This document shows positions 2,671 through 24,971 of a stretch of 25,069 nucleotides of DNA, in pieces. The position numbers and the translations under genes were made by a program. Location of the stretch: the IMG/VR virus record IMGVR_UViG_3300037606_000183, positions 1 to 25,069 of that record; one strand, written 5' to 3'. Numbering within the stretch: position 1 is the stretch's first letter; each line of letters starts with the position of its first letter. The notes beneath the pieces are model-generated. The model searched no databases. It saw only the letters and a program-made list of their open reading frames with translations, and was not told the DNA's origin. The DNA is from a virus.

Positions 2671-2700
2671 TTGACAATTGTGGAAATAGTAGTACCTTTG
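2671..2700 (+). promoter_or_regulatory. Bacteroidota-type promoter, left plus-strand operon
   Basis: TTGACAATTG at 2671 and TACCTTTG at 2693-2700, 19 nt apart, exactly match TTG / TAnnTTTG. Nearly the same sequence recurs at 4338-4367 (TTGACAATTGT, then TAGTACCTTTGTA), which supports function. The expected start of transcription falls at or next to the ATG at 2705, implying a leaderless message for the 60-aa ORF or a start further downstream. Confidence 0.8.
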
Positions 2701-3430: not shown

Positions 3431-4204
3431 ATGGAAACTACAACAACAACAACAGCAACAGAAAAATTAAACAAAACTAACTATATTAAAAGTTACCCAA
3501 TTTTTAAAAAATTACCACTAAGTAATACACAACTTAACTTAATTGAATTGGTGCTATCATATCAAATAGCCAATAAACAATGCTATTTAAACCGAAAAGA
3601 TATAGCTGATTATTTAAATTTAAAAAATGCCAAAACAGCAGATAATTTAATTTTAATTTTAAAAAAAGCTGGCTACATTTCAACAAATCAAAAACACAAC
3701 CTTAAAATAAATAGCGGTATAATGAGTGGTGGTTCATCTTCAACCATTACAGTAAATTTACAATTCATTTTTGATATTTTAGAAAATAAAACAACCAATG
3801 AAATAGCCTCTGTAATCGCTCCAATTGAAACAGTAATAGAAGTTATACAAGAAGAAGAAACAATCGCTGTAATCGCTCCAATTGAAACTGTAATAGAAGA
3901 TGTACAACAAGAAGAGATAGTTGCTGTAATCGCCCCAATTGAAGTGTACAAAGAAGAAGAACACCCAGTTGTTGATTGGATGGCTTTTTTACCATCAAAA
4001 AATGAAGAAATTAAAGTAGCTAAAAAATTAACAATGGATTATGCATTACCAATTTTATCTTCTGTTATTTTTAAAAACAATATAGCAGCTTACAATAAAG
4101 AGTTAGTTGTGTCAAAAATTAAAAAAGAAATTATCAATAACTCAATAACAGTTGATGAGTTTAATGATGACTTTGTTTTAAAATTGATTAATCAATCAGC
4201 TTAA
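3431..4204 (+). CDS. Winged-helix DNA-binding protein with tandem repeat linker (long paralogue)
   Basis: The 257-aa protein starts METTTTTTATEKLN and then follows the short paralogue closely through residue 118: SYPIF, LIELVLSYQ, CYLNRKDIADYLNL, DNLILILKKAGYI and GGSSSTITVNLQFIFDIL. This is a winged-helix DNA-binding domain. Residues 128-175 are an acidic linker of 19-residue repeats (VIAPIETVIE...), two full and one partial. A C-terminal domain (about 180-257) with VVDWMAFLPS and helices follows. The layout of DNA-binding head, flexible linker and effector tail suits a phage replication initiator or helicase loader; this is inference from architecture. The short paralogue lacks the linker and tail and could compete for the same sites. 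Confidence 0.7.
   Translation: METTTTTTATEKLNKTNYIKSYPIFKKLPLSNTQLNLIELVLSYQIANKQCYLNRKDIADYLNLKNAKTADNLILILKKAGYISTNQKHNLKINSGIMSGGSSSTITVNLQFIFDILENKTTNEIASVIAPIETVIEVIQEEETIAVIAPIETVIEDVQQEEIVAVIAPIEVYKEEEHPVVDWMAFLPSKNEEIKVAKKLTMDYALPILSSVIFKNNIAAYNKELVVSKIKKEIINNSITVDEFNDDFVLKLINQSA
3812..3958 (+). repeat. 57-bp in-frame tandem repeat inside the winged-helix gene
   Basis: Copies start at 3812, 3869 and 3926 with GTAATCGCTCCAATTGAA (GCC in the third), two complete and one partial. Each full unit encodes 19 residues, so copy number can change without frameshift. The near-identity of the copies suggests recent slippage or recombination. Antisense open frames over this stretch are artefacts of the repeat. 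Confidence 0.85.
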
Positions 4205-4215
4205 TTAACTACCTT

Positions 4216-4280
4216 ACTATTTAGAATCAATATAAATTATAATAATATCTGAACTTTTAAAAACTTTCAGATATTTATAA
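4216..4280 (+). promoter_or_regulatory. Box copy 3 plus promoter-like element
   Basis: ACTATTTAGAATCAATATAA at 4216, then AT, is box copy 3. It is followed 38 nt on by CTTTTAAAAACTTTCAGA (4254) and ATATTTATAATAAAGG (4271). This parallels the block at 3249-3312. It has no gene directly after it, only box copy 4 and the strong promoter at 4338, so this may be a tandem promoter arrangement. Confidence 0.45.
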
Positions 4281-4302
4281 TAAAGGAACAATAACAACAT
4301 AC

Positions 4303-4324
4303 ACTATTTAGAATCAATATAAAT
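4303..4324 (+). promoter_or_regulatory. Upstream box, copy 4
   Basis: ACTATTTAGAATCAATATAA followed by AT is identical to copy 3 and ends 13 nt before the TTG of the promoter at 4338. Probably the binding site of a shared regulator of the plus-strand genes. Confidence 0.5.
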
Positions 4325-4337
4325 AAGATATTAATAG

Positions 4338-4367
4338 TTGACAATTGTAAAAACATTAGTACCTTTG
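4338..4367 (+). promoter_or_regulatory. Bacteroidota-type promoter of the metalloprotease-like gene
   Basis: TTGACAATTGT at 4338 and TACCTTTG at 4360-4367, 19 nt apart, match the TTG / TAnnTTTG consensus and the promoter at 2671. The element decides the start of the next gene: a frame beginning with TTG at 4338 would start inside the promoter, so ATG at 4395 is chosen. Confidence 0.8.
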
Positions 4368-10345: not shown

Positions 10346-11557
10346 TTATTCTTGTATTTTTGTTTCTGTAACGATTTCTGTTTCTGTTATAATTAAATCT
10401 TTGAAATCTTTAAAGTCTAATTTAACGTTTACGTCATTTATAATTATAATACTTTCAAATGCATCAATTATAACCTCTCGCATTGGATTAATTACTTTTC
10501 TGTAAAAGACTCTCAGTGCCGTATTCATTTCATCGGCATTATTTCCAAAACCAGAAGAACCATCTGACCCCATTAATATTGGAAAATATCTATGTGCAGC
10601 AATAATTTTATCTTTTGCTTCTTTTGCTGTTTCAAGAAATTTTGAATGCTCGTCACTTGATGCTATTGGAGTTATTTCAGTTTTCATTTCAGCATTGTCA
10701 TTGAAAGATAAGAAAAACTTACCACCATTAGATGAACCAGTTAGGTCTTGTCTAATAGCTTTTTCTGCCGTCTCTTGCCCCTCATCTGTATCTTCTAACC
10801 CTTTAACTATATTAACGACATAACCAGCTGAGAAACCGTTTTCTATCCAACTGATTGTAAAGTTTGAAATCTCTTCTTCTGATTGGCAATACTGCAAAGC
10901 GGCTTGATAATCAGGTAGTTTAAAATAAGGAAATCTTTTTGATAATCCAATAACCATTATTTCAGAAGCTGGTGCAACTAATTCTTCGCCTGTAGCTAAT
11001 TCAATTTCATTTATTTCTTCTGGTGTTAAGGCATCGTAAACACCAAATGCATCAAACTCTTGTGAAGGAAATTTAGTTATTTCATTCCAATCAAATGAGT
11101 AGAAAAATTTCTTTGGAGAATCGTTGTAATCCTTTTCTTCTTGAATTGCAATTGATTTAATGGCAACGTGCTCAATGCTTGTGACTTTACGGTTGTGGTT
11201 GTATATAACCTCTAACGCAGCGTGAGCATATATTTTATAATCTTTAATAACTAATCTTAAATCAGCATTTGATATAAGGTCTTTAATAGTTTGACCGTTG
11301 TTTAATAGACCCAAACCATAAATGTAATCAGCAATATCATCAATGATAGATGCGTTCGTTACAGAGCCTATATAGCGGTCTTTTAAGAAGTCAAAATACT
11401 TATTAAATTCACCATTATATACTTTTTTATTTTGGATTCTATAATCAATTTGGGTTGAAGGTTTAACATAATTGTTTAATTTAATGCTAACCACTCTACT
11501 TGTTTTTGCTGAGGTAAAGTCTCTTTTATTTAATTCTTTTTTGTATCTTGGCTTCAT
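10346..11557 (-). CDS. Portal protein
   Basis: The 403-aa protein resembles Bacteroidota siphophage portals. It has an N-terminal arm with YGLGLL, a middle region with an EHVAIKSIAIQEEKDY-like clip and wing part, and then HRYFPILMGSDGSSGFGNNADEMNTALRVFYRKVINPMRE near the end. That last stretch is the P-x-x-L-x-G...G-x-x...N...Y-x-x-x-I-x-P pattern of the portal stem and crown helices. Twelve copies would form the ring that packages DNA. It is followed directly by a connector gene. It lies far from the terminase genes, which is unusual for this class of phage. Confidence 0.75.
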   Translation of the reverse strand: MKPRYKKELNKRDFTSAKTSRVVSIKLNNYVKPSTQIDYRIQNKKVYNGEFNKYFDFLKDRYIGSVTNASIIDDIADYIYGLGLLNNGQTIKDLISNADLRLVIKDYKIYAHAALEVIYNHNRKVTSIEHVAIKSIAIQEEKDYNDSPKKFFYSFDWNEITKFPSQEFDAFGVYDALTPEEINEIELATGEELVAPASEIMVIGLSKRFPYFKLPDYQAALQYCQSEEEISNFTISWIENGFSAGYVVNIVKGLEDTDEGQETAEKAIRQDLTGSSNGGKFFLSFNDNAEMKTEITPIASSDEHSKFLETAKEAKDKIIAAHRYFPILMGSDGSSGFGNNADEMNTALRVFYRKVINPMREVIIDAFESIIIINDVNVKLDFKDFKDLIITETEIVTETKIQE

Positions 11558-12025: not shown

Positions 12026-12054
12026 TTAATACTTTTTTCAATAGTTAGTGTAAC
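12026..12054 (-). promoter_or_regulatory. Late-type motif copy C (GTTACA-N15-AGTATTAA)
   Basis: On the minus strand GTTACA (12049-12054) and AGTATTAA (12026-12033) are separated by exactly 15 nt, as in copies A and B. It lies 19 nt before the ATG at 12006 and just after the terminator at 12063-12091, so it probably starts the unit that holds portal, connector and fibre. Confidence 0.65.
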
Positions 12055-12062
12055 GTATAACC

Positions 12063-12091
12063 AAAAAAAGCCCCCTTTGATTGGGAGCTTT
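12063..12091 (-). terminator. Terminator after the probable tail tube gene
   Basis: On the minus strand AAAGCTCCC (12083-12091) pairs with GGGGGCTTT (about 12067-12075) with one G-T pair, and seven T follow. It ends the capsid / tail tube unit and sits directly before motif copy C. Confidence 0.8.
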
Positions 12092-12109
12092 GATTTTTAA
12101 TATTTAAAA

Positions 12110-12640
12110 TTAAACGTTTACTGCAACAGCTGACAATAAAGTTGTAATAGCTGCTGTAGCTAAGTGACCAGATGGATTCTTTTCTTCGGCTGTGAAGGTA
12201 ATATTATAACCGTTGAAATCTCCCATAGCACCACCAGTTGCAAGGTTTCCAGCTGTTAAGTCAGCTCCACCTAATTCTCCAACTAATAGGAAGTTACCCA
12301 TATTATCTTCAACGATAATGTGAGGTCTACCAGCTGACATAAACTTTAATTGATTAGTCATATCAACTGTTAATTTTTGAATTGCAAGGGTAACTACCTG
12401 TGAAAAGAAAGTAGTACCAGCGTCTCTTGATGTAACTACATCTTGTTGGAAAGTATTTCCTGATGCTTTTAAAACGTATTTAAAAGCTTCGCCTGGAAGT
12501 AAGTCAGTAATAGCCGTTACTGAGCTATCTAATGTTGTAAACGTTGCTGCATTGTAATTAATAAAATATGCCGCTTTGAATCCACCTTGTGTATTTTTAC
12601 ACACTAGGTTTCTGCCTTGGGTAATTAAGCAATCTGCCAT
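12110..12640 (-). CDS. Probable major tail tube protein
   Basis: The 176-aa protein begins MADCLITQGRNLVCKNTQGG and contains SRDAGTTFFSQVVTLAIQKL, PHIIVEDNMGNFLLVGELGGADLTAG and NGYNITFTAEEKNP. An R-D-x-G-T-x-x-x motif, a strand pair around a G-x-x-x-x-G-E-x-G-G loop and a C-terminal F-x-A-E-E-x-x-P strand are features of tail tube proteins in Bacteroidota siphophages. A capsid decoration protein is the main alternative, because it lies next to the major capsid gene and not near the tape measure. The position after a hairpin within the capsid unit suggests adjusted expression. Confidence 0.55.
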   Translation of the reverse strand: MADCLITQGRNLVCKNTQGGFKAAYFINYNAATFTTLDSSVTAITDLLPGEAFKYVLKASGNTFQQDVVTSRDAGTTFFSQVVTLAIQKLTVDMTNQLKFMSAGRPHIIVEDNMGNFLLVGELGGADLTAGNLATGGAMGDFNGYNITFTAEEKNPSGHLATAAITTLLSAVAVNV

Positions 12641-12663
12641 TTTTTTGTCTGTATTTTTTAGTT

Positions 12664-12698
12664 AAAAAGAAATGGGGCGGGACAATCCCTCCCCATTT
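12664..12698 (-). terminator. Intercistronic hairpin between capsid and tail tube genes
   Basis: AAATGGGG-A-GGGA and TCCC-G-CCCCATTT (arms 12686-12698 and 12670-12682 on the minus strand) form an 8+4-bp stem with a 3-nt loop, followed by CTTTTTAAC. The short T-tract suggests partial termination or mRNA protection rather than a full stop, and could set the ratio of capsid to tube protein. Confidence 0.6.
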
Positions 12699-12723
12699 GC
12701 TAATATTTATTATTTTTATTTGA

Positions 12724-13638
12724 TTATGCTGGGCTGTATAAAACAACTTCTCCACCAAATCCGTAATTTGTATCAGCTGCAAAAACAACTTTTACTCTTA
12801 CGTTGTCAGACAAATCTGTTTCAGACATATCCAAGATTCTAACCTCGTTGAAGTCAGCTACTAAAGCAGTTCCCATATAAAAGTTTGACTTTCTGTATGC
12901 TACAGCAGTTCTTGCTGGCAAGTTAGGAACAACATCCAAAGCAACACCGTTAAAGAAAAGAGCAGCGTTATCTTGGTTGTTAAATTGGTTTTGGAAACCT
13001 AAAGCTGCTTGACTAGCGATGTAAGCTCTGTACATATCACTTGAAACAACCAATACTAAATCATCCTTTGTAAAAATTTCATCAGGAATAACTGTGAAAA
13101 CTTTTGTCATTTCAGCAACAATGTTAGCTGCTGTAATTGTAGAACTTGCTACCACATCAATAACTGTTACGTCTGCCTTTAAAGTTGGAATCAAACCTCT
13201 GAATTGACCGTCAGTAGCTGCTACACCATTCCAGATTGAAGCATCAATAGAAGATGACAATTGGTCCAAGATACGAGCTATGATAGCTTCTCTTTCGTCA
13301 GCTGGCAATGAATCATTGTGAGCAGAAAAACCCATTGTTTCTGAATCCCAAAGGTTTCTAAAATCTTCCTTGCAAAATTCTTGGTTGATTTTTAATTTCT
13401 TTGGCTCTAATACTTTTTCGTCTAAAACGATAGAACCTGTTGGGTTGAATGAACAAGAATAGTTTTGTAAACCATTTTCTCCGTCAATTCGTCTTATGTA
13501 ACCTTTACCGTGAGCGATGTTAGGAATTACGGTAATTAATCCTTTTTCAATTGTGTTTGCATCTTTGAAAGACTCCATAATGTAAGGAGTTGCTGCTTTA
13601 CCTGTGAAATTTGAGGTAATACTTTTAGTTGTAGGCAT
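12724..13638 (-). CDS. Major capsid protein (HK97-fold)
   Basis: A 304-aa protein with an N-terminal arm (MPTTKSITSNFTGKAATPY) and an E-loop-like stretch. The P-domain long helix DEREAIIARILDQLSSSIDASIWNG follows, then GLIPTL, a long A-domain part with VLVVSSDMYRAYIASQA and a C-terminal FAADTNYGFGGEVVLYSPA strand. The helix plus VLVVSSDMYRAY and the final GFG..VVLY strand fit HK97-type capsid proteins of Bacteroidota phages. It lies directly after the protease-scaffold gene, as is usual. Confidence 0.85.
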   Translation of the reverse strand: MPTTKSITSNFTGKAATPYIMESFKDANTIEKGLITVIPNIAHGKGYIRRIDGENGLQNYSCSFNPTGSIVLDEKVLEPKKLKINQEFCKEDFRNLWDSETMGFSAHNDSLPADEREAIIARILDQLSSSIDASIWNGVAATDGQFRGLIPTLKADVTVIDVVASSTITAANIVAEMTKVFTVIPDEIFTKDDLVLVVSSDMYRAYIASQAALGFQNQFNNQDNAALFFNGVALDVVPNLPARTAVAYRKSNFYMGTALVADFNEVRILDMSETDLSDNVRVKVVFAADTNYGFGGEVVLYSPA

Positions 13639-13686
13639 CTTGTTTTTTGTTTTATTTTTATTATTATTATTTTATTCTATATTTAA

Positions 13687-14289
13687 TTATCGTCCGAACA
13701 ATTTAGCTCGTCTTTCTGCTTTAGTCATTTTAACATTTGAATCTTTTGCTAATGCGATTGCACTTATTTTTTTGATTCTTGGTTGTGATTTCAATTCAAC
13801 TACTTGTGCTTGAACTTCTTCTGTATCTGCTTGTAATCCTTCAATGATAGCTTGTAATTCAGCAATCTTATCTTTCAATGCTTGTACGTCTTCTTCTTCT
13901 TCAACACCTTCAACTACAGCACCTGCCTCTTCAGCAGCAACTTCAACCACATCAACAATAGCGTCAACGTCTTCATTTAATTTTAATTCTTTTCTGATTT
14001 TTGCAAATTCAATTTTAACTAATTTAGCTAATTCAACCGCTACTGTTTCAGTTTCTGTCGGTACCTCTGTAACTTCACCAAGCAATCCAGCTTCGTCAGT
14101 TGTGTACACCATTCCTTCGTATTCCCAACTCGCACTCATCAACGGCATTTGAACACCATCAACCTCACTCAAAACTAAGAATCCAGCTTCAAAAGCTTCT
14201 GCATAAAGTGAACCCATTCCTTCCACTTCAATTTCCAAATACTCTACAGCCAATTCGACTTTTTTTGCCTTAAACATATCTTTAAACAT
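13687..14289 (-). CDS. Possible nested scaffold protein from an internal start (200 aa)
   Basis: In frame with the protease gene, ATG at 14289 (codon 197) follows AAAAAAAGGAAAT, one of the few purine-rich, Shine-Dalgarno-like leaders in the window. The DNA just before it (about 14290-14335) looks like an intergenic leader that happens to have no stop. The product begins MFKDMFKAKKVELA and covers the whole scaffold part. Internal starts that give a separate scaffold are known in other phages (lambda C/Nu3). This is a prediction. Confidence 0.5.
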   Translation of the reverse strand: MFKDMFKAKKVELAVEYLEIEVEGMGSLYAEAFEAGFLVLSEVDGVQMPLMSASWEYEGMVYTTDEAGLLGEVTEVPTETETVAVELAKLVKIEFAKIRKELKLNEDVDAIVDVVEVAAEEAGAVVEGVEEEEDVQALKDKIAELQAIIEGLQADTEEVQAQVVELKSQPRIKKISAIALAKDSNVKMTKAERRAKLFGR

Positions 14290-14877
14290 ATTTCCTTTTT
14301 TTAATTTATTTTTATTATTTATTTTCAATTCTACACTTCTCATTACCTTAGACATTCCAAATAAACCATCAATTGAAAAACCTGTAACTTTACCTGTCTT
14401 TATGTATTTATTCCAGAGCTCATCTGAATCTACTTTCATCGTTACCATTAAAGTTCCAACTGGTACATCAAATCCATAAAGCTTGCTCTTATCCATTTCA
14501 ACAGATTCTACTATCCAAGTTTCAACTACTGAAACACCTTCAACAAACTGACCTTTATGTTCTATTTTTGAATTGGTGTGGAAACCGTTTTTCATAAATT
14601 CTTGACTAGCCAATCTAATGACTTCTTCGCTGAATTGAATGGTTGCTCCATCTTTACCCCAATCTCTATAAATCTTTTGGTTTGGAATTAATACAGGAGA
14701 AATTAATAATCTCTTTTCTTCTGATTGTAGCTTTAATTCTACTTTTTTATCCTCCGATAATGCAATAAATTTAAAACCGTTTGCTGAACTTTCAACTAAA
14801 CTAATTCCAAACATACCTTCAAATGATTCTTCATCTACTATGTTTGAGGGGTCAAATGTTATTTTATAATCTTCCAT
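13687..14877 (-). CDS. Prohead protease (XkdF-like) fused in frame to scaffold protein
   Basis: The 396-aa product is in two parts. Residues about 55-185 look like the XkdF-like putative protease domain: SKIEHKG with H107, then VVETWIVESVEMDKSKLYGF, GTLMVTMKVDSDELWNKYIKTGKVTGFSIDGLF. S125 and H107 are candidate catalytic residues. Residues 197-396 are a scaffold-like region with acidic and coiled-coil sequence (LKDKIAELQAIIEGLQADTEEVQAQ) and a basic tail (KAERRAKLFGR). Between them lies a Lys/Asn linker (KINNKNKLKKGN). A nested start is annotated separately. It is the first gene after late-type motif copy B. Confidence 0.75.
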   Translation of the reverse strand: MEDYKITFDPSNIVDEESFEGMFGISLVESSANGFKFIALSEDKKVELKLQSEEKRLLISPVLIPNQKIYRDWGKDGATIQFSEEVIRLASQEFMKNGFHTNSKIEHKGQFVEGVSVVETWIVESVEMDKSKLYGFDVPVGTLMVTMKVDSDELWNKYIKTGKVTGFSIDGLFGMSKVMRSVELKINNKNKLKKGNMFKDMFKAKKVELAVEYLEIEVEGMGSLYAEAFEAGFLVLSEVDGVQMPLMSASWEYEGMVYTTDEAGLLGEVTEVPTETETVAVELAKLVKIEFAKIRKELKLNEDVDAIVDVVEVAAEEAGAVVEGVEEEEDVQALKDKIAELQAIIEGLQADTEEVQAQVVELKSQPRIKKISAIALAKDSNVKMTKAERRAKLFGR

Positions 14878-14892
14878 ATTTTTATTATGTGT

Positions 14893-14921
14893 TTAATACT
14901 TTTAATTTTTTAAAATGTAAC
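14893..14921 (-). promoter_or_regulatory. Late-type motif copy B (GTTACA-N15-AGTATTAA)
   Basis: On the minus strand GTTACA (14916-14921) and AGTATTAA (14893-14900) have exactly 15 nt between them. It lies 15 nt before the ATG of the protease-scaffold gene and next to a 12-bp hairpin at 14925-14959. It probably drives the capsid unit. Confidence 0.65.
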
Positions 14922-14924
14922 GTT

Positions 14925-14959
14925 TTACAAGGGCTTTGACTTGTTTTAAGCCCTTGTAA
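14925..14959. terminator. 12-bp perfect hairpin after the tape measure gene
   Basis: TTACAAGGGCTT (14925-14936) pairs perfectly with AAGCCCTTGTAA (14948-14959) over an 11-nt loop. On the minus strand no T-run follows, so it is either a weak terminator or an RNA-processing stem; on the plus strand it is followed by a T-rich stretch. It ends 3 nt from motif copy B. Confidence 0.6.
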
Positions 14960-14997
14960 GACATTATCTTTTTCTTTTGATAACCTATACTATTTTA

Positions 14998-16854
14998 TTA
15001 AATAAATGTGGCATTTTTAGCCTTATCTCTATCAAGACCTTGTTGTGTTGACATTTGAGTTGAAACAACTTGAGCTACAATTGGTTTAGCATTTTGACCT
15101 GCAACTGTTTCAGCTAACTGATTTGTGCCTGATGTGCCTACTACATTGAATGAGGGTGCAGAAGAACCACCACCACCACTTGCTCCACCACCGCCACCAG
15201 AAGCACCAGACGCTCCACCTTTAAACTTTGTTTTGGCAATTGCAGCAACTTTAATAGCTGAGAATACACCAGCACTTGCGGCTTGAACAATTGGATAAGC
15301 AGGAAACAAAGCAGTTATTGGGGACTTCTGTGCTGTTGTATAAGCGTTTTGAGTACCCTCTATTCCAGCCATTGTTGCTTGAGCAAGCTTTAGACCTTTA
15401 TCAATATCAAATGCTTTCTTAGCGTCTTTTTCAGAACTACCTAAAAATAAAGAAGCTATGTCACCTATTGCTTGAGCTGCATTAGAAGCTAATTGAATTT
15501 TAGCAGTATTTACGTCTTGGTCTAATTGTTTTTCCTCTTCTGCTGTTTTTTGATTTAGTTGACTTTGTCTTATTCTAAATTCTTCGTCTTTACTGTTCTT
15601 TAAAATAATTTTAGTTGATTCTTGGATATCGAGTGCTTCAATTTCAGCTAGGTCTCTTTCTTTTTGACGGTCTAGTTTAGCTTGCTCACTAACATCTTCT
15701 AAATCTTGGATTGTTTCAATGGCAGACTTTCTTAACTCAACTCTTTTGTTTTCATTTTCAACCTCTTTATCAGCTACTGTTTGATTTAATGCGTCTTGTT
15801 TTATTTTAAATTGGGAATCTAATAATTCTAAGGCTGCATTTCTTCTAGTACCAGCTTCTATTGTTAAATTGATAGATTCTATTTGTCTTTCTTTTTCTAA
15901 ATCTAATTTCTTTTGCTCAGTATTTGCTTGAAGGTTTTCTAATTCATCAGCTAACTTAGTTTCAAGGGCTACTCTTTCAGCTTCTAATTTAGCTCTTTCA
16001 GCAGCTATCTTTTCATTATTACTTTTTCTTTTATCAGCGGCTATTTTATTTGCTGCATCTACTTTATCCTGTTCTTTTTTTCTACCCTCATCTCTTTGAT
16101 TTTGTTCATCAGCATTAATTTTAAGAATTTCTCTTGATAGTCTTTTAGCTAAAGCTTCTTGATTAGAGCCCTCTTCTTTTAATGCCTCGCTGTAAGCATT
16201 TTCAGCATCTATACGAGCCTTTTGGAATTCATTTAACGTATCACCTTGCTCGGCTAAAAACTTCTTGTTTCTGGCTAATGATTCATCTGCTGTTTTGTTT
16301 AACTTTTCAACTGCTCTTTCAGCTGCTGAGGTTGCCCCAACAAAGTCAGTAACAGAATCTACTATTCCACCAATCAATGAACTAATACCTTTTAAACCAG
16401 GAAAAAGATTTAAAACAACTTCTTTTACTTTATCAAAATTTGCAATAAGCAAACCAAGTCCTATAACCAATAAACCAATACCTGTTGATGCAAGTGCTAT
16501 TCTAAACAGTTTCATTGCACCTGTTGAAGTTCCAACTACAAAAGTATAACCAGCTTGAGCTATACTAGCAATCTTATTTCCCGCAGCGGCTAAGGATGTA
16601 TTTTTAGTAAGTAATTGAGTTGCTTCAATGGTATCTTTAACTGTTGATGCTAAACCCCCTGTAACAGCGTTTAAAAGGGCTACAGCTCCACCGTTATCAG
16701 TTATGGCTTGACTGTTTTGATTAGTTGAAGCCGTTGCTGTATTGGTAGCAGTTGAAACATTATTTAAAGCTTGCTCAGTACCTCTTAATTCGTTGCTAAC
16801 TTCATTTGAGTTAGTCTGTAAATTAATTATTCCCGTTATTTTAGTATCTGCCAT
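14998..16854 (-). CDS. Tape measure protein
   Basis: The 618-aa protein has a Ser/Thr/Asn-rich N-terminus and a hydrophobic section (about residues 90-170) with FRIALASTGIGLLVIGLGLLIANF. A very long charged, Lys/Glu/Ala/Gln-rich coiled coil from about 185 to 470 follows (KIAAERAKLEAERVALETKL and similar). A second hydrophobic patch and a Gly-rich segment (GGASGASGGGGGASGGGG) lie near the end. This is the standard plan of tape measure proteins, which set tail length. At about 0.15 nm per residue the tail would be about 90 nm. Its start overlaps the stop of a 50-aa ORF (TAATG). Confidence 0.85.
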   Translation of the reverse strand: MADTKITGIINLQTNSNEVSNELRGTEQALNNVSTATNTATASTNQNSQAITDNGGAVALLNAVTGGLASTVKDTIEATQLLTKNTSLAAAGNKIASIAQAGYTFVVGTSTGAMKLFRIALASTGIGLLVIGLGLLIANFDKVKEVVLNLFPGLKGISSLIGGIVDSVTDFVGATSAAERAVEKLNKTADESLARNKKFLAEQGDTLNEFQKARIDAENAYSEALKEEGSNQEALAKRLSREILKINADEQNQRDEGRKKEQDKVDAANKIAADKRKSNNEKIAAERAKLEAERVALETKLADELENLQANTEQKKLDLEKERQIESINLTIEAGTRRNAALELLDSQFKIKQDALNQTVADKEVENENKRVELRKSAIETIQDLEDVSEQAKLDRQKERDLAEIEALDIQESTKIILKNSKDEEFRIRQSQLNQKTAEEEKQLDQDVNTAKIQLASNAAQAIGDIASLFLGSSEKDAKKAFDIDKGLKLAQATMAGIEGTQNAYTTAQKSPITALFPAYPIVQAASAGVFSAIKVAAIAKTKFKGGASGASGGGGGASGGGGSSAPSFNVVGTSGTNQLAETVAGQNAKPIVAQVVSTQMSTQQGLDRDKAKNATFI

Positions 16855-17006
16855 TATTTTTGTTTGTATTTAAATTCTCTTTTTATTTGCTCTAAACTTT
16901 CTTTTACCGTTTTTGGTATTTTAAATTTACCCTTTGCTATTTCAATTTCAATTGATTTATTGTATAATTTATTTTCTTTTAATAATTTTATTATATTTAA
17001 TATCAT
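16854..17006 (-). CDS. Small hypothetical protein upstream of tape measure (50 aa)
   Basis: ATG at 17006 begins MILNIIKLLKENKLYNKS and ends FKYKQK. The TAA stop overlaps the tape measure ATG by one base (TAATG), indicating translational coupling. It is basic and helical with an Ile/Leu-rich start. It fills an otherwise unexplained gap of about 260 bp together with a non-coding part (17007-17116) in which nothing clear is seen apart from AT-rich sequence. Function unknown. Confidence 0.6.
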   Translation of the reverse strand: MILNIIKLLKENKLYNKSIEIEIAKGKFKIPKTVKESLEQIKREFKYKQK

Positions 17007-17116
17007 ATTTATTATATTTATTAATGTTATCTATTCTTTATGTTATAATGAAAAACCTTTGTCAATCCTTACTATCATTGAAGAGTTCAGAATTGACATT
17101 AATTTTTTGCGAGAAT

Positions 17117-19954
17117 TTATTGTAAACTATTTTGAGTAATATTAACAACTCTTTGTTGATTACCAACAGTAAATAGTAAATCCATAGTTCTAAATTGACC
17201 ACTTGTGTTTGGGTTTAAAACAAATGTGCATTCCTCTTCGCCCTCACCACTTTCATTCACAATATTAAGCCAAAATAAACCGTAACCTCCACTTTGAACT
17301 TTTTCAACAGTCCAAGGTAATTTATATAATAAATCAACTCCATACCAATGTGCTCCAGCATTTATATTTAATTCATTTGTTGAAATTAGTAATGTATTGT
17401 TATTTATTGGTTGATTAAAACTACTGTTTGTCCAAGCGTATAAATCGTTAAAAAAAGTAAAATCGGTTTCACCAGAGGTAAGGTCAACAGTAAAATCATT
17501 AATTCTATATCTGTTACTTCCAATTATAAGACTGTCATTCAATTCTAATGTATCAACTAATCTTGCAGGTAATGCTGCTTTATATCCTATCTTTCTTTGT
17601 TTCTTTGAATAGATAGAACTAATCCAATCGCTCCAGAAGTTTTTAAATAAAGACTTGTCTGAGACTTGTAAATGCCAAGGGTCGATTTCAGTTCCCCAAT
17701 TTAATGTTTGCGTTACTTGGGTTAATAATTCATCATTTGTGTTGCCAATTAAGGGGTGATGGTTTACTTGTACTGTTTGATTACCAAATTTAAAAAAGAA
17801 AAAATCTAATGAAGAACCTATTACACCGTTAGAATAAAATAAAATTGGTTTTGAATCGTTTTCGCTAAAAGAAATTAAATCATCACTTGAAACGGATTGA
17901 CCAATTGAAATAGATTTTACATCGCCATTATCTAAATCAACCATTCTTTCAAATAGCATATTTTCAAATGGTAATTTAACAGATAAAACATCCTTGTTTT
18001 TAATCTGAGGAAAGCTAGAAGATAAATCACCGTACCCAATTAAATCATTAAATGGGTCGTTTAGTTTTCTAAATGTTTTACCGAGTAAATTATCTGTTTT
18101 TTCATATAAGTATTCAATTTTAGAATAGATTTTTGGTCTATCAATAGTTACCTCATCTTGTTTAATATAATCAGTAATATCAATTACATTACCTTTAGAA
18201 TAATAGTTGTTAAGTGAATCTAAATAAAAAAAATTGTCACCTAGTCTTTCTTGTGGTCGAATTACTAATTTAAACATTTTCATTATTCCACTAACAAAAT
18301 CAATAACTTTCATTTGAGGCAGATTTTTTTCTACTTTTAAAAAAACTGTGTTAGTGTTTGGATTGTTAATATATGTTAAATTTGTTAAAGTTTGACTTTT
18401 AATATATCTGCAATTAACATTAACACCATAGCTCATAGTTCTGTTCGATTGAATAAACATTTGTACAGTGTTGGTTGTTTGTATATTATTATTTAAAGTA
18501 ACTTGATTTGGAGCAACAGCTGCTTCAAAATTAATTTTAAAGGTTTTATTACCCAAGTTATTTTCAAACTTTTTAAGCACTAAACCATTTGCGTCTTTTA
18601 ATATTACGGTATAATTTATAGTTGCATCAGATACAGTTACGGCATATTCTAATTTTACAATATTAGAAACAAAAGCATTTGCTCTAAATTTATCTCTGAC
18701 AATATTAATTAAACTATTTAGCATACTTATGGTGTTTCCATCAACAGCAGCATTTACGTTGCCAGATAAAATAGTTAAAGATTCATCACCTATGACATTA
18801 TCTGTTCTTGCATTCATCCACATAAAAATAGATTGAAAATTAGATTTAAGAATAAAATCATTAGAGAAATTAATTCCATATTTTATTTCAATAGCTTCCA
18901 TTATTCTCGCTATTTTAATTGCCTGACGTAATTCGGTATCTAAAATTGCTCCTGTGCTTGATGATATATCTTTTGATGCTTCAGTTCCATTGTATTGCCA
19001 ATCTCTATCTGTATAAGCTATAAGCGGTGTAATTATATTATTACTTTTAAAAACTGGATTATTAAAAGTAGATAGTAAATTTGGTAAAGTGTATTCAAAA
19101 TCCATAAAAGATAAAGAGCTAAAAACTTTTTGACCAGCTTTATTATAATCTAACCTATTAATAGTATCATCACCGAATAAGTCCAACAATTGAATAACGT
19201 TAGAATAAAATGTAATCTTATAACTGTTAGGCATTTGCATAACTGTTTTAACCCCTTCAAGTTGCATTGTACCTCGTCTAATTGGAAATGATGAAACTTC
19301 TAGCATAGCTTCAACAACAGTGCTTGCATCAAATCCATTATCAATGTCAATGTCGTAGTAGTGTTTAAATATCTTATTATTGTTTTCGTTTGCTGGCACT
19401 GTAAATGAGTTAGTATAATCAGAAAACACATTTGATAGTTTTTCAATATCACCCAAGTTATTTTTTAATTCTATTTTTTCCTCATCAAATAAATCCAACA
19501 GAGCAAAATCATTAACTATTTTAACTATACCTTGTGTTTTAAAAATATTATTTAAAATTGTTATAAATCTTGGTGTTTTACCACTAACATTTCCTTTTGA
19601 TTGAGGTTGTGAACTTTCATTTGAATCAGTAAAATCTAAAATAGGTGAACCGTTTTTTGCAAAAATAGTAAATGATAAATCAGATAAATCATACTCAACA
19701 TCTAATTCTAAATTCTCTGAAAGTTTTTCGCCAATAAATTCAGTTGCCTCAGTTCTATCTGTTGGTAGCTTAGTTATTTGTGCAAAATCTATCCCATATT
19801 TATTTTTTGATTCTGTATTTGGAAAATTAGGGTAAATCGAAAATGAGAATTCAGCTAAGTCATTTAGATTAGCTGAAAGTATTAATCTTTTACCCTCAAT
19901 TAAAGTATCTTCAAGTACTTCTGTTTTTGTGCCGATGTATATTTTTACTTTCAT
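17117..19954 (-). CDS. Large tail protein with C-terminal BACON-like domain
   Basis: A 945-aa protein starting MKVKIYIGTKTEVLEDTLIE. The region after about residue 170 has YTNSFTVPANENNNKIFKHYYD, a motif shared by tail-tip proteins of Bacteroidota phages. Long beta-rich segments follow. The last 85 or so residues form a domain with LPWTVEKVQSGGYGLFWLNI, then NESGEGEEECTFVLNPNTSG and FRTMDLLFTVGNQQRVVNITQNS. The pattern W-x-V...W-L-x-I...S-G-x-G...N...R-x-x-x-L...V-x-I-T-Q is that of BACON domains, thought to bind carbohydrate or mucin. It follows the 487-aa gene with no gap (TAAATG). Probable baseplate or tail-tip component. Confidence 0.75.
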   Translation of the reverse strand: MKVKIYIGTKTEVLEDTLIEGKRLILSANLNDLAEFSFSIYPNFPNTESKNKYGIDFAQITKLPTDRTEATEFIGEKLSENLELDVEYDLSDLSFTIFAKNGSPILDFTDSNESSQPQSKGNVSGKTPRFITILNNIFKTQGIVKIVNDFALLDLFDEEKIELKNNLGDIEKLSNVFSDYTNSFTVPANENNNKIFKHYYDIDIDNGFDASTVVEAMLEVSSFPIRRGTMQLEGVKTVMQMPNSYKITFYSNVIQLLDLFGDDTINRLDYNKAGQKVFSSLSFMDFEYTLPNLLSTFNNPVFKSNNIITPLIAYTDRDWQYNGTEASKDISSSTGAILDTELRQAIKIARIMEAIEIKYGINFSNDFILKSNFQSIFMWMNARTDNVIGDESLTILSGNVNAAVDGNTISMLNSLINIVRDKFRANAFVSNIVKLEYAVTVSDATINYTVILKDANGLVLKKFENNLGNKTFKINFEAAVAPNQVTLNNNIQTTNTVQMFIQSNRTMSYGVNVNCRYIKSQTLTNLTYINNPNTNTVFLKVEKNLPQMKVIDFVSGIMKMFKLVIRPQERLGDNFFYLDSLNNYYSKGNVIDITDYIKQDEVTIDRPKIYSKIEYLYEKTDNLLGKTFRKLNDPFNDLIGYGDLSSSFPQIKNKDVLSVKLPFENMLFERMVDLDNGDVKSISIGQSVSSDDLISFSENDSKPILFYSNGVIGSSLDFFFFKFGNQTVQVNHHPLIGNTNDELLTQVTQTLNWGTEIDPWHLQVSDKSLFKNFWSDWISSIYSKKQRKIGYKAALPARLVDTLELNDSLIIGSNRYRINDFTVDLTSGETDFTFFNDLYAWTNSSFNQPINNNTLLISTNELNINAGAHWYGVDLLYKLPWTVEKVQSGGYGLFWLNIVNESGEGEEECTFVLNPNTSGQFRTMDLLFTVGNQQRVVNITQNSLQ

Positions 19955-21418
19955 TTATTGTATATTATTAATCTTATTGTGGCTCATTTTAATTACTAAA
20001 CTGTATTGAATAAGTTTATCGTTTAACTGTGTTTTATATTGCAAAGAATCGGTTACTTTTACTATTGGTATGATATTATCAAATTTGTCTATCAGCCAAA
20101 CAGATTCTGACAACATTGCCTCAGTCATTACCTCATTCATATACTCTGGTCTAAAATCTGTATTCAATGTCCACTCTTCTTCTCCACTTACATTATATTC
20201 TAAATTTGTGTGTTTAGAAATATCGAAAACACCGTTAGCATTAACAATACTTCGTAAAAAACTTTGACCTTTTGTTTTAAGTGTTTTAGTTAGTTTTTTA
20301 CTCATTGAGAGCGTTTCTAGTACGCCATATCTATTTTTAAATACTAAGTCATACACTTCATATTTGCATTCCTCTGTCACACTATATTCGTAATTAACTG
20401 TAATCGCTCTTGACCCACCATAAGAAAATCTGTAAACTATTATTGAATTTTCGTTAGTCGCTAAAGAAGTATCAATTAATAAAGATTGTACATATTTATC
20501 GTTTTCTAAATTATCATTATCAAATGCAGTAAAAACAACATTGACAGCAGCGGATGGATTACTTTTTAAAAACACTTGAACTGAAATTAAATTTTTAGTT
20601 TTAAAATATATACGGTCAACGCTACTTTTATCTATTTCTTTTTTTAAATTAGTTCTTAAAACAGCTCGTATATTTTGAGTTCCTAATACTTGATTGTAGC
20701 CATCCAAAACAAAAAAGAATCTGTTTTTTGTGGATTGAATATTAGAAGAAAAAACCAAAACATTTTCCTCATTTACATATAACCACTTACTTTCCTTTGG
20801 TGATAAAGGTTTAGCTATGTATTGTGTTCCATCTCTATATCCATTTATATCACTTCTAAGACCTTCTTTTGCTATGTCAGCTACATTCACCCAAACATTA
20901 GATTGTGAATCTGTTAGCTTCTTTTTAGATTTTAAATAAGATGGTAAAGTATTTTGGTATTCATTTGCGTCTCCTTCATACATTCTTAAATCAAAATTAG
21001 TACTTGAAAAAGTTGTACCAAATAAAGCCTCAGAAATAACTAATTTAGGACTTCTAACCAATGCCTCTTCTATATTATCTTTAGTTGCAATTTCATCAAA
21101 TATAAATTGAATATTGCCAGATGTTGTTCCATACACTAAATCAATATTTCCTTCTCTAGGAGTTATGTAAACAATAGAACCAGTTCGATTTACTATTATT
21201 AATTGGCTAAAATCTAGCTTTAAGGCTGTTTCAAAGTTTTGTGCTGATATTAGAGCAGTTGAACCAAGGGTTGTTTGACCCGTTTGATTTCTTGTTGTTT
21301 TAAAAACTTGCTGAATAGTTGTATATGTTGTACTATTTGGAGACCAAGCCACAGTTATTGTTTGGTCCAATGCTACGTTTGCAAAAAATTGAACTCCTAA
21401 TTTTGGAATGTATGCCAT
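19955..21418 (-). CDS. Tail / baseplate protein (487 aa)
   Basis: The protein begins MAYIPKLGVQFFANVALDQT and is beta-rich throughout. In the C-terminal third it has CKYEVYDLVFKNRYGVLETLS, then a stretch ending in MTEAMLSESVWLIDKFDNIIPIVKV and a last strand. This C-terminal arrangement (C-x-Y-x-x-x-x-L-V-F-x-N-R-x-G...L-x-S-E-x-V-W) occurs in Bacteroidota phage tail proteins next to the large tail-tip protein. It is probably a distal-tail or baseplate-hub component. It starts after ACAATAAA, 1 nt after the HK97-gp10-like gene. Confidence 0.6.
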   Translation of the reverse strand: MAYIPKLGVQFFANVALDQTITVAWSPNSTTYTTIQQVFKTTRNQTGQTTLGSTALISAQNFETALKLDFSQLIIVNRTGSIVYITPREGNIDLVYGTTSGNIQFIFDEIATKDNIEEALVRSPKLVISEALFGTTFSSTNFDLRMYEGDANEYQNTLPSYLKSKKKLTDSQSNVWVNVADIAKEGLRSDINGYRDGTQYIAKPLSPKESKWLYVNEENVLVFSSNIQSTKNRFFFVLDGYNQVLGTQNIRAVLRTNLKKEIDKSSVDRIYFKTKNLISVQVFLKSNPSAAVNVVFTAFDNDNLENDKYVQSLLIDTSLATNENSIIVYRFSYGGSRAITVNYEYSVTEECKYEVYDLVFKNRYGVLETLSMSKKLTKTLKTKGQSFLRSIVNANGVFDISKHTNLEYNVSGEEEWTLNTDFRPEYMNEVMTEAMLSESVWLIDKFDNIIPIVKVTDSLQYKTQLNDKLIQYSLVIKMSHNKINNIQ

Positions 21419-21419
21419 T

Positions 21420-21917
21420 TTATTGTTTTTTAAATATTGTGTTATTACCTTTTGTTACATTTTCGACAAAATCAGCTAATATTGCTTCAGGTAAATCTTG
21501 ACTTAATGCTTTTACCTCATCATTGAAAGGTGCTTGTATAAAGGGTTGAGGTCTTATTCCTTTTTTAAATATGCTTGATTGCAATGCGTATTCATTTATT
21601 CCTTTTGCTTTTGCAAATCCTATTAAAGATGATATTGGTGGCTTCTTATTTGTAAATCCAAACTTAGAACCTCTACTGTTTTCTTTACCGTTTACACCCT
21701 TATCTATAAAGAATGCATAGTCTGCACCATTAATTACTATATTGTCCCCTACAACTTCTCCTGTGAATGAATTAGCTAACTTACCAGAGTTATTTGGTGC
21801 TCTGTTTTGTAAATTATTTGCTAATTCATTTGCTGCTTGTTCTAATGTCTTCCTAGCTTTTAATCCTAGCATCCTGATATTGTGTTTGGTATTGATACTG
21901 TAATTGTTAAACCCCAT
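21420..21917 (-). CDS. HK97-gp10-like neck / tail completion protein
   Basis: The 165-aa product contains AANELANNLQNRAPNNSGKLANSFTG (the A...A-P-x-x-[ST]-G-x-L...S pattern) and YAFFIDKGVNGKENSRG (Y-A-x-x-[IV]-[DE]-x-G), the two hallmarks of the HK97 gp10 family, plus a C-terminal RPQPFIQAPFNDE helix. An alternative start is Met16 (21872), whose ATG overlaps the stop of the upstream gene (ATGCTAG) and would give 150 aa. The first 15 codons overlap the previous gene by 52 nt, so the shorter form is a serious alternative. Role: joining head and tail or completing the tail. Confidence 0.75.
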   Translation of the reverse strand: MGFNNYSINTKHNIRMLGLKARKTLEQAANELANNLQNRAPNNSGKLANSFTGEVVGDNIVINGADYAFFIDKGVNGKENSRGSKFGFTNKKPPISSLIGFAKAKGINEYALQSSIFKKGIRPQPFIQAPFNDEVKALSQDLPEAILADFVENVTKGNNTIFKKQ

Positions 21918-22321
21918 CCGTCAAGTATATTTAGATTAGTAAATATTAATGGGGTAACGCTACTTGCTGCAATTAATTCAATATCATCGTCATTATAACT
22001 GTTTCTTATATAATTAATTAATCCATTTAAAACGGCGTGACACATATTTAAATTATCAATTTCATTGTCATTACCTAAAAATTTATCTTTTATTTCATCC
22101 GTTGAAAGGTCTCTTTGGTCCAGAACAGCAATTTCAAATGTAAATTCGTTTACGTTAGCATTTCCAAATGATGCTGAAACTGGATTAATAATTGCTAAAG
22201 GATATATATTCTTTTTGTTTTTATCAGCCTGTGAAAAGTCACCGTGTATAACTGTGTTAACATCAGGGTTTTGTTGTAATCTATTTCTTAAAAGTTCGAC
22301 TATCTTGTAATATGATTTCAT
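21866..22321 (-). CDS. Putative tail terminator / completion protein
   Basis: A 151-aa protein with DFSQADKNKKNIYPLAIINPVSASF, then FTFEIAVLDQRDLS, KFLGNDNEIDNLNMCHAVLNGLINYI and an end DGWGLTITVSIPNTISGC. The beta-alpha-beta alternation with a final strand and the place between the chaperone and the gp10-like gene match tail terminator or neck proteins of siphophages. The assignment rests on context and secondary-structure pattern. It starts immediately after the frameshift frame ends. Confidence 0.55.
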   Translation of the reverse strand: MKSYYKIVELLRNRLQQNPDVNTVIHGDFSQADKNKKNIYPLAIINPVSASFGNANVNEFTFEIAVLDQRDLSTDEIKDKFLGNDNEIDNLNMCHAVLNGLINYIRNSYNDDDIELIAASSVTPLIFTNLNILDGWGLTITVSIPNTISGC

Positions 22322-22603
22322 TTATGTTTGTATTTTAGCTTTTTGAATTCTTAGTATTTCTAAATTTATTTTTTCTTTTTCAAATTGGAGCCAAGTTAAA
22401 AATTCCATTATGTTTGTTTTGGTGACTTCATTTAATTTTAAATATTGACCACCAGCTGCTGCATATAATGATGGATACCAACCGTAATTAGTTGAAAACT
22501 GTTTTTCTTCTTCATTACTTTCATCACTACCCTCATCTAACTCAAAGAGGTATCTGAAATTTTCTGTAGTTGATTGTTTAAAGTCCAAAAAAAAACCAAG
22601 CAA
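22322..22603 (-). CDS. Tail chaperone GT extension, -1 frameshift product
   Basis: This frame has no ATG: going upstream it is open to a TGA at 22640-22642 with only TTG at 22601-22603 as a start, and it overlaps the chaperone gene. Its conserved-looking part has ENFRYLFELDEGSDESNEEE, then YGWYPSLYAAAGGQYLKLNEV and FLTWLQFEKEKINLEI. It resembles the T part of G/GT pairs. Reading through T9 (plus-strand A at 22587-22595) with a -1 slip joins 174 residues of the upstream frame to 88 of this one, giving a 262-aa protein over 22322-23109. The Glu-rich bridge is the expected flexible part. Confidence 0.7.
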   Translation of the reverse strand: MLGFFLDFKQSTTENFRYLFELDEGSDESNEEEKQFSTNYGWYPSLYAAAGGQYLKLNEVTKTNIMEFLTWLQFEKEKINLEILRIQKAKIQT

Positions 22604-23109
22604 CCAACTAAATAGCTTGATGGAATGTCTTTCATAATTTCAGAATATTTTGCTGTTCCATTATATTCTTCTATCTCATATTTTGTTACTGTCTTTTTTC
22701 TTAAAAAACTTTGCTTTTGAATTGTGATTAGTGGTCTATATAAAACAGCCATTAACTTGTGATAATCTTCTGGTGTTGCTAAGTACTTTTCACTGTCTAG
22801 GAACTCCCCTACGGTCATATCTTCTAGTTTAGGTATAAAGCCATAGGTTATACCTTTATGTTCAAATACTGCTTCAAATTTAGGTTGCTCCTTTAATAGA
22901 TTAGCAATAGAATTTGAAATGCCATCATAAACAGAAACTGATAATTTATTGATTTCTTTTGTTGATAGCCCAGTAAAATATTGAACTACTTTATTATCTG
23001 CTTTTATTTCATCGTTTTTATTTTCATCCAGAATCTGTAAAATCTTTTGGTATTCTTTTAAAGGAAGATTAACTAAATCTTTTGGAAATTTTAAATCATT
23101 TTTTATCAT
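22537..23109 (-). CDS. Tail assembly chaperone, G-type (zero-frame product)
   Basis: A 190-aa protein with ITYGFIPKLEDMTVGEFLDSEKYL and HKLMAVLYRPLITIQ, then a Lys-rich turn and YEIEEYNGTAKYSEIMKDIPSSYLVGCLVFFWTL. The G-E-x-x-D-x-E-x-Y and M-A-V-L-Y-R-P motifs and the C-terminal F-F helix are typical of tail chaperones of Bacteroidota siphophages, which coat the tape measure before tube assembly. The gene is first in the unit after motif copy A. Frameshifting at its end gives the longer GT form. Confidence 0.75.
   Translation of the reverse strand: MIKNDLKFPKDLVNLPLKEYQKILQILDENKNDEIKADNKVVQYFTGLSTKEINKLSVSVYDGISNSIANLLKEQPKFEAVFEHKGITYGFIPKLEDMTVGEFLDSEKYLATPEDYHKLMAVLYRPLITIQKQSFLRKKTVTKYEIEEYNGTAKYSEIMKDIPSSYLVGCLVFFWTLNNQLQKISDTSLS
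22587..22595 (-). other. T9 slippery site for -1 frameshift
   Basis: On the coding strand the zero frame reads TTG GTT TTT TTT TGG and the -1 frame reads TTT TTT TTG GAC. A run of nine T allows tandem tRNA re-pairing by one base back. The slip occurs about 50 nt before the zero-frame stop (22537-22539). A strong downstream stimulator is not obvious. Confidence 0.7.
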
Positions 23110-23113
23110 AATC

Positions 23114-23142
23114 TTAATACTTTTATTTTTATTTAATGTAAC
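23114..23142 (-). promoter_or_regulatory. Late-type motif copy A (GTTACA-N15-AGTATTAA)
   Basis: On the minus strand GTTACA (23137-23142) and AGTATTAA (23114-23121) have exactly 15 nt between them, identical in form to copies B and C. The AGTATTAA part ends only 4 nt before the chaperone ATG at 23109, so if it is a -10-type box the message would be leaderless or nearly so. It lies between the TerL stop and the tail unit. Confidence 0.65.
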
Positions 23143-23148
23143 TTTGGT

Positions 23149-24372
23149 TTATCGTCTAACGAATCTTCTGGTTAATGTTGATTGTTTTTTACCTATCATT
23201 GTCATTACCACATATCTTACCGCATCAATTAAATGGTTATATTTATCAATTGGTGTATTTGATTTCTTTTCGAGCCAAGTGTAATGGTTTAATTCGGTTA
23301 TTAAATTCTTTGATGTAGGGGTTACAATTATCTGATAATCCTTCATTAACATTATACCTGTAACTATTGAACCAGGAGCTTTAGAAACAGCTTTAATATT
23401 TAATCCTTTGCTTTTAACCTCTTCAATTAATCTTGGTTCTGCACTATCAGCTATTATTAATGCTGTACCAGCGTGTGTTTTATTTAATTCACATATTTGA
23501 GAAGTTGTTAAACCTTTTAAATAAAATTGTTCATCAAGATATATTTTCTTTTGTTTACTATCAATTCCAACTCTAACCAAAGTTGTTTCGTCCCAACTAA
23601 ACCCAAAATCTTGTCCAAAAACAGTTGTTAATGTTTCATCATATTCTCCAACTGTGTAATCAAAAATAACCCCTTCCGCTGCATCTTGCCACTTTCCATT
23701 AATAACAAGCTCATATTTACTAGGGTTAGTTGATTTAAGTTTTTCGACTTCCTTTATAAATGAAATATCTAAATGTTTATAATTATCTTTATAGGTAGTA
23801 TGTATATATGTTGTATCGCCTTTAGTTAAATTAGAACCTTCTGCTACACCAGCATCTTGAAAAAATCTTTTGTAAATCCAATGTTCTTTTGTTGCGGGGT
23901 TTAGTAAAAATATAATTCTATTTTGTTTACCTTTAGTTCGTACACTTAAATTAATTTTATCAAACACAACTTCGTCTAAAAGCTCTTCTGCCTCTTCCAT
24001 TACCCAAGTTGTTACGCCAGCTAAAGATTTTAGATTTGCTGATTGGTCCCCTGATGAAGATTTGATACCCCGAAAAATTATTTTACTACCTGTTAATTTA
24101 TGTATTATTTCTGTTTTTGTAACTTCAAAATATTCTAATAATTCCATCTGTTCTATCTTATCCACAAATTCTGGAATAATAGATAAGTGAGCTGAGGTCA
24201 TTGTTAATCTAGTAAATAAAATAGTATGACCTTTTTCAAACATTAATAAAGCAAGAAAAGTGGAAGCTGAAAATGACTTTGAAGACCCACGACCCCCTGT
24301 ACAAAGGATATATCTGCTAGCCGATGTAAAGAGGGTTTTATATTTTGAATTTAATTTTATTTTATTAAGCAT
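23149..24372 (-). CDS. terL: Terminase large subunit
   Basis: The 407-aa protein is the packaging motor and nuclease. ATPase: Walker A GGRGSSKS (residues 26-33), Walker B VMEEAEE (124-130) and coupling motif NPA (158-160). Nuclease: GQDFG (D255), IIADSAEPRLIEEVKSKG (D309) and NHLIDAVRY (D383), the three acidic residues expected for the RNase H-like domain. This matches the Terminase_3 / PBSX type. It starts 3 nt after TerS ends and after AATAAAAT. Confidence 0.93.
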   Translation of the reverse strand: MLNKIKLNSKYKTLFTSASRYILCTGGRGSSKSFSASTFLALLMFEKGHTILFTRLTMTSAHLSIIPEFVDKIEQMELLEYFEVTKTEIIHKLTGSKIIFRGIKSSSGDQSANLKSLAGVTTWVMEEAEELLDEVVFDKINLSVRTKGKQNRIIFLLNPATKEHWIYKRFFQDAGVAEGSNLTKGDTTYIHTTYKDNYKHLDISFIKEVEKLKSTNPSKYELVINGKWQDAAEGVIFDYTVGEYDETLTTVFGQDFGFSWDETTLVRVGIDSKQKKIYLDEQFYLKGLTTSQICELNKTHAGTALIIADSAEPRLIEEVKSKGLNIKAVSKAPGSIVTGIMLMKDYQIIVTPTSKNLITELNHYTWLEKKSNTPIDKYNHLIDAVRYVVMTMIGKKQSTLTRRFVRR

Positions 24373-24375
24373 ATT

Positions 24376-24828
24376 TTATTCTGTTTTTTCAAATGATAGT
24401 ATATCACCTATATTGAAATCTTTTACTGTAATTGTTTGGTCTATTTTTTTAGGTGCATCAAATCCAGCTATTTTAGTTAATTGGGCTAATGCCTGTAATA
24501 ATGAACGGCTATCTGCTGCAACTCTATCTTCTCCTTCACCTCTAGCTTTTGAATCATTTATAACACCGTACAGCTCTTCAATTATATAAGATAACTTAAT
24601 CTCTTCTGACTGTCTCATAGCCTCTCGTTTAAGCTCTATATAATCCTTAGCCTTAACTGAACTTAACAACCTAGATGCACTTGCCTCGGCTACTTCGTTA
24701 CTAGATTTTGGTTTTAGAATTTTATATGTTAATCTACCATTGAACGAATTTGTAAACCATAAGTCAATAAATTGTTTATCAAATACACTTAATTCTTTTT
24801 CTTCTATCTTTTTCTTTTTTTCCATCAT
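24376..24828 (-). CDS. terS: Terminase small subunit
   Basis: A 150-aa DNA-recognition subunit starting MMEKKKKIEEKELSVFDKQF. It contains FTNSFNGRLTYKILKPKSSNEVAEASASRLLSSVKAKDYIEL, the fold of Terminase_2-type subunits (F-N-x-x-x-x-Y-K-x-x-x-P...A...A-S-R-L-L...K-x-x-x-Y-I), then helices for oligomerisation and a C-terminal acidic tail that would contact TerL. The start is ATG 24828 (or the next ATG, 24825), because the upstream ORF stop overlaps here (ATGATG with TGA); an earlier GTG at 24855 would overlap that ORF and is rejected. Confidence 0.82.
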   Translation of the reverse strand: MMEKKKKIEEKELSVFDKQFIDLWFTNSFNGRLTYKILKPKSSNEVAEASASRLLSSVKAKDYIELKREAMRQSEEIKLSYIIEELYGVINDSKARGEGEDRVAADSRSLLQALAQLTKIAGFDAPKKIDQTITVKDFNIGDILSFEKTE

Positions 24829-24971
24829 ACTATTAATTTTTTTGCTTCTAAACACATTTTTTCAATCAGTCTCATTAACTGGTCATTTGTTTTGTCGTAT
24901 TTTACAACTGCCGAAATATCTTTGTCGTCTATATTTATTTCAACATCTTTTACTTTAACTGTAACTTTCAT
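24825..24971 (-). CDS. Small hypothetical protein before TerS (48 aa)
   Basis: ATG 24971 begins MKVTVKVKDVEINIDDKDIS and ends CLEAKKLIV; the TGA overlaps the TerS start (ATGA). It is made of alternating hydrophobic/charged strands (VTVKVKDVEINI) and then a helix (DQLMRLIEKMCLEA), so it is folded rather than random. The tight overlap suggests one operon with TerS. Function unknown; a DNA-binding or regulatory role would be speculative. Confidence 0.6.
   Translation of the reverse strand: MKVTVKVKDVEINIDDKDISAVVKYDKTNDQLMRLIEKMCLEAKKLIV

Follow-up and report, generated by a model that had tools for sequence, protein, structure and literature searches.

The virus record IMGVR_UViG_3300037606_000183 of the IMG/VR database raises the question of how the structural genes of this phage are switched on and which factor reads their start signals. 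The complete record was analysed (25,069 bases, hereafter the window); it is classed as linear and therefore probably represents a genome fragment, and it belongs to a phage infecting Bacteroidota, namely a flavobacterial phage. An exact scan found the two-box element GTTACA-N15-AGTATTAA in exactly three copies, all on the minus strand and each ahead of the gene that opens a structural module (gene starts 23109, 14877 and 12006; Table 1). This bears out what a first-pass annotation of the sequence had claimed about the number, strand and position of the copies, their identical half-sites and their 15-nt gap, and agrees with its remark that no further spaced copies were visible by eye. We consider it very likely from the sequence that the three sites are late promoters read by a phage-encoded sigma factor on the host core RNA polymerase. 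The late-promoter set is real and constitutes a variant of the phage sigma-dependent late control exemplified by phage 7-11, since it comprises few two-box sites of fixed spacing before structural modules, and a sigma factor is encoded in the same genome, both in the window (1579-2184) and in relatives. In the literature searched, this promoter class is not described.

Three copies of a two-box element in the window

In addition to the two boxes, all three sites share an AAA preceding AGTATTAA. Copies of the element with one mismatch are absent from the window and only two occur with two mismatches (14703-14731 and 10446-10474); by a second-order Markov estimate 0.0011 exact copies would be expected per window by chance. 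When all dyads of 6+8 nt were considered (gap of 10-20, at least three G/C, tandem repeat 2440-2640 excluded), GTTACA/AGTATTAA and its three shifted versions were the sole ones occurring three times, compared to a mean of 0.17 such dyads in 30 shuffled windows. A chance similarity among AT-rich spacers, for which the AT-richness of the genome and the chance-level frequency of looser copies (up to three mismatches) could speak, is at odds with these shuffle tests and already contradicted by comparative data, i.e., the conservation at orthologous genes described below, so that its probability is practically negligible.

The sites do not resemble promoters of the host type. A minus-strand scan for the Bacteroidota primary-sigma box TAnnTTTG gave no match at any of the three, where the second box reads AGTATTAA; the first-pass annotation had rightly set their motif apart from the TTG/TAnnTTTG promoters that it had placed at 2671 and 4338, and both of these were confirmed (Table 1). 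Transcription would be divided between two sigma factors: the host primary sigma would transcribe the early genes from host-type promoters, and a phage-encoded sigma would then bind the host core RNA polymerase, with its region 4 reading GTTACA (at about -35) and its region 2 reading AGTATTAA (at about -10). Three transcripts would start from these sites, heading the tail, the protease-capsid and the portal modules. The predicted start lies at or beside the AUG at site 1, and at all sites in most relatives, which would yield leaderless or nearly leaderless mRNAs; it is the box-to-ATG spacing that suggests such late mRNAs.

Conservation and concerted variation in related phages

Terminase and capsid searches yielded more than 150 related loci, and orthologue profiles of the module-head genes A, B and C (downstream of sites 1, 2 and 3, respectively) were built from the relatives plus the window. 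In dozens of related phages the regions upstream of the orthologues show a two-box element like that of the window. With the window excluded, expectation-maximisation placed T[AG]TAACAAA-N11/12-TCGTTATAA in 128 out of the 152 different regions, a fit that is descriptive because the starting motifs had been selected visually in these same data. For 104 of the 128 fitted regions the distance from the end of the second box to the ATG is exactly 4 nt, and CGTTAT alone is found exactly 6 nt before an ATG in 39 of its 674 occurrences, compared to 0-3 at every other distance below 40. Nearly all relatives have 11 or 12 nt between the two 9-nt boxes, and the window has 12 at each site. In some relatives the site precedes a different gene at the module boundary, e.g., the portal gene itself or a small gene ahead of the protease gene, and G043 and G049 carry a further site just downstream of the sigma gene.

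The window and its relatives are alike in the three module-head genes, in the gap and in the ATG distance at site 1. Single boxes are also shared: L123 has GTTACA-N15-CGTTTTAA at all three genes, with the -35 box of the window, and G037 has GTAACA-N15-AGTATTA at two genes, with its -10 box. The sites of the window are, by their sequence, a divergent version of the relatives' element. When the extended exact motif was searched across all viral contigs, 11 single copies were found, which we take as chance matches because their host contigs have no match to gene A, B or C.

The fixed distance of the second box from the ATG in relatives, together with the absence of Shine-Dalgarno sequences in Flavobacteria (PMC6847099), could also be understood if the element acted in translation, or as an operator bound by a repressor or activator protein, instead of being a promoter. 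Against this, the element consists of two boxes whose gap is fixed at about the length of a promoter spacer, and it stands at module heads and not before all genes. Furthermore, the distances from AGTATTAA to the ATG in the window, which the first-pass annotation did not give, differ between the sites (4, 15 and 19 nt for sites 1 to 3), a terminator lies directly upstream of site 3, and T-rich, terminator-like ends precede the gene-C sites of many relatives. We therefore regard a role in translation or as an operator as very unlikely.

Evidence for a phage-encoded reader comes from the way in which the boxes vary. In the 31 distinct genomes that have two or more sites, agreement of the boxes across the genes of one genome amounts to 86%, vs. 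64% after shuffling of genomes (z 15.6, 0/2000), and excluding the window changes little (z 14.9). Controls that share ancestry and base composition reach z 3.1 (spacer) and z 2.6 (upstream flank). The boxes of the relatives were located by one common profile and those of the window were set by hand; a common profile cannot by itself create agreement within genomes. Examples of genome-specific pairs are TGAAACAA/TTGTTAT in G043, TACAACAAA/ACGGTAAT in L057 and TATATCAAA/GTATTATAT in L115, and the window is a further example. As the boxes are alike within a genome far beyond chance, all sites of a genome seem to share one reader particular to it, and the concerted variation suggests that every phage has a trans-acting factor of its own. 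If a host sigma, for instance a host ECF (extracytoplasmic function) sigma, read the sites and the phage sigma were unrelated to them, boxes that are genome-specific and vary in concert would not be expected, nor would a -10 box that tracks the phage sigma (see below); the boxes also do not fit the primary-sigma motif TAnnTTTG. We consider a host reader very unlikely.

Candidate sigma factors for the sites

One ECF-like sigma of about 140-200 amino acids is encoded in 31 of the 42 records examined (25 of these contributed to its profile). Of another 21 viral contigs, 15 have it as well, and the gene usually lies 0.5-1.5 kb upstream of the terminase. Distance between these sigmas is correlated with distance between the -10 boxes once divergence of genes A and B is accounted for (partial r 0.24, 0/2000 permutations), and shows no correlation with the gap between the boxes. 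In L231, L233, L234, L237 and L242 the sigma gene is followed by a small reading frame containing a G-L-G-D-V/T-I motif; the motif pattern gave no match in the window.

The sigma-70-family gene that the first-pass annotation had reported at 1579-2184 was verified: its product of 201 amino acids matches PF04542 (35.4 bits), PF04545 (33.6 bits) and TIGR02937 (80 bits), all above curated cut-offs. It matches the broad sigma70-ECF superfamily model, and the SigB/FliA models stay below cut-off. It gave no match to the profile of the relatives' ECF-like sigma and is not its orthologue, and a full match of the 201-amino-acid type was not found among the relatives examined. Scans of viral contigs with the sigma, the protease and the small terminase of the window found no relatives; the nearest terminase relative is L004 (78%, on a 4.1-kb contig). 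That the 201-amino-acid protein reads the sites has, in our estimate, nearly an even chance.

Only 697 nt of the record remain upstream of the terminase, and a gene for an ECF-like sigma may hence be located just past its right end. In that case this phage sigma could read the sites and the 201-amino-acid protein could have another role. The usual place of the gene in relatives, with only 697 nt of it held by the window, would fit this arrangement, as would the ECF-like sigmas of both G037, which has the same -10 version, and L123, which has the same -35 version. However, in some relatives the sigma gene ends less than 697 nt from the terminase, and a gene so placed would show partly in the window; moreover, the boxes of the window are unusually divergent, as expected after takeover by a different sigma. 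We hold an ECF-like reader beyond the end to be a serious possibility, just short of probable, and a reader other than these two sigmas to be unlikely. Of the first-pass proposal that a phage sigma acts at the sites, the late regulon with a phage-specific reader is supported; the gene at 1579-2184 is a candidate for that reader.

Several observations weigh against late promoters read by a phage sigma. The profile trained on relatives gives the window sites low scores of 2.2-3.6 bits, which put them at ranks 85-147 of the window; the main cause is an A in the second box at the almost invariant T of the relatives. In several relatives the profile gives unrelated places scores as high as those of true sites. 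Sites 2 and 3 are not at the fixed ATG distance. Sigma distance leaves the -35 box unexplained (partial r 0.00, same correction). Co-occurrence of sigma and motif is a weak test and was dropped as such, because contigs lacking the sigma mostly also lack genes A-C.

Known systems and the neighbourhood of the sites

The closest tested precedent for late promoters served by a phage sigma is the late regulon of Salmonella phage 7-11 with the sigma SaPh711_gp47, which drives late promoters GTAAtg-(16)-aCTA in vitro; for both 7-11 and phiEco32 the switch to a phage sigma on the host core polymerase is established (PMC8948821). Likewise, we propose here few bipartite late promoters, a phage sigma with region 4 and early promoters that use the host sigma. 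Phage 7-11 is a podovirus of Enterobacteria with eight promoters, whereas the window has three sites before structural modules, known from their sequence, and its relatives have, unlike 7-11, a second box of the CGTTAT type with the ATG at a fixed distance. The middle/late promoters of phiEco32 are similar in that late genes are under a phage sigma (gp36) on the host core (PMC8948821), as proposed here, but they consist of a single element, tAATGTAtA, without a -35 box, and gp36 has no region 4 homology.

A CGT -10 box is also part of the ECF promoter motif SM6 of Flavobacterium psychrophilum, which differs in being a host regulon of type IX secretion genes; 5.5% of the mRNAs of this organism are leaderless (PMC9723704). 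Among isolated phages, Nonlabens phage P12024L is a relative: its gp35 is annotated with Sigma-70 region 2, and the element stands at the fixed ATG distance before gp01 (the protease orthologue) and gp05. It differs in having no site ahead of gp40 (gene A), whose start overlaps the terminase stop, and its annotation does not describe promoters.

From these sites, late transcription starts can be predicted across a group of Bacteroidota phages that is widespread but for the most part uncultured, and every one of these viruses seems to control its late genes by a promoter code of its own. About 30 different sigma-promoter pairs are on offer for reading the recognition code, and leaderless late mRNAs become testable in hosts where such mRNAs are rare. 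It is tempting, if tentative, to speculate that the members of a large group of flavobacterial phages have a sigma-promoter code each, with three or four late promoters and leaderless structural mRNAs, and that the lineage of the window swapped the ECF-like sigma for another sigma type and kept the three-promoter layout.

Table 1. Promoter elements, hairpins and genes in the window.
Feature	Position	Strand	Remarks
Site 1	23114..23142	-	GTTACA-N15-AGTATTAA; 4 nt from second-box end to ATG at 23109
Site 2	14893..14921	-	GTTACA-N15-AGTATTAA; 15 nt ahead of protease gene ATG
Site 3	12026..12054	-	GTTACA-N15-AGTATTAA; 19 nt ahead of 148-aa gene ATG
Sigma-70-family protein, 201 aa	1579..2184	-	has regions 2 and 4; may read the sites
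Host-type promoter	2671..2700	+	TTG-N19-TACCTTTG; ahead of plus-strand (probably early) genes
Second host-type promoter	4338..4367	+	nearly identical to promoter 2671..2700
Intrinsic terminator	12067..12091	-	hairpin with T-run, just upstream of site 3
12-bp hairpin	about 14925..14959	-	directly upstream of site 2; -16.9 kcal/mol, z -5.0, no T-run
Module-head gene A, 190 aa	22537..23109	-	phrog_32199, no assigned function; first gene after terminase
Module-head gene B, 396 aa	13687..14877	-	XkdF-like head maturation protease (Peptidase_S78_2)
Probable major capsid protein	12724..13638	-	phrog_11320; identity inferred from position
Module-head gene C, 148 aa	11560..12006	-	ahead of portal; E 2.4e-31 to gene-C profile (profile includes window sequence)
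Portal protein	10346..11557	-	
Terminase large subunit	23149..24372	-	
Terminase small subunit	24376..24855	-	window end 214 nt upstream

Both hairpins that the first-pass annotation had placed at the ends of units next to two of the sites are real, but the one at site 2 is not a standard intrinsic terminator, as it lacks a T-run. Site 1 has no hairpin and directly follows the terminase stop codon. Gene A overlaps the reading frame 22322-22603, an arrangement that would suit a tail-chaperone frameshift.

The stretch that separates the sigma gene from the plus-strand genes contains five copies of a 24-nt unit (2454-2619), four with the palindrome ACACATATATGTGT and partly arranged within a 71-nt repeat. 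A 35-nt element around ATTTAGAATnAnTATAAAT is present in four copies (2623-2657, 3246-3280, 4213-4247 and 4300-4334), two of them just upstream of the two host-type promoters, and might be an operator. The genes at 2903-3268 and 3431-4204 are paralogous, with DNA stretches 70-84% identical, and the second contains three 57-nt repeats.

Two database labels among the relatives are doubtful. A contig labelled Euryarchaeota archaeon (L167, PBGL02000003.1) carries a relative of this phage group and is probably a mis-binned phage contig. The terminase match of Shigella phage Henu10 (OQ791282.1) is identical in record coordinates and identity to that of Riemerella phage ON933637.1, and the host label of Henu10 may be wrong.
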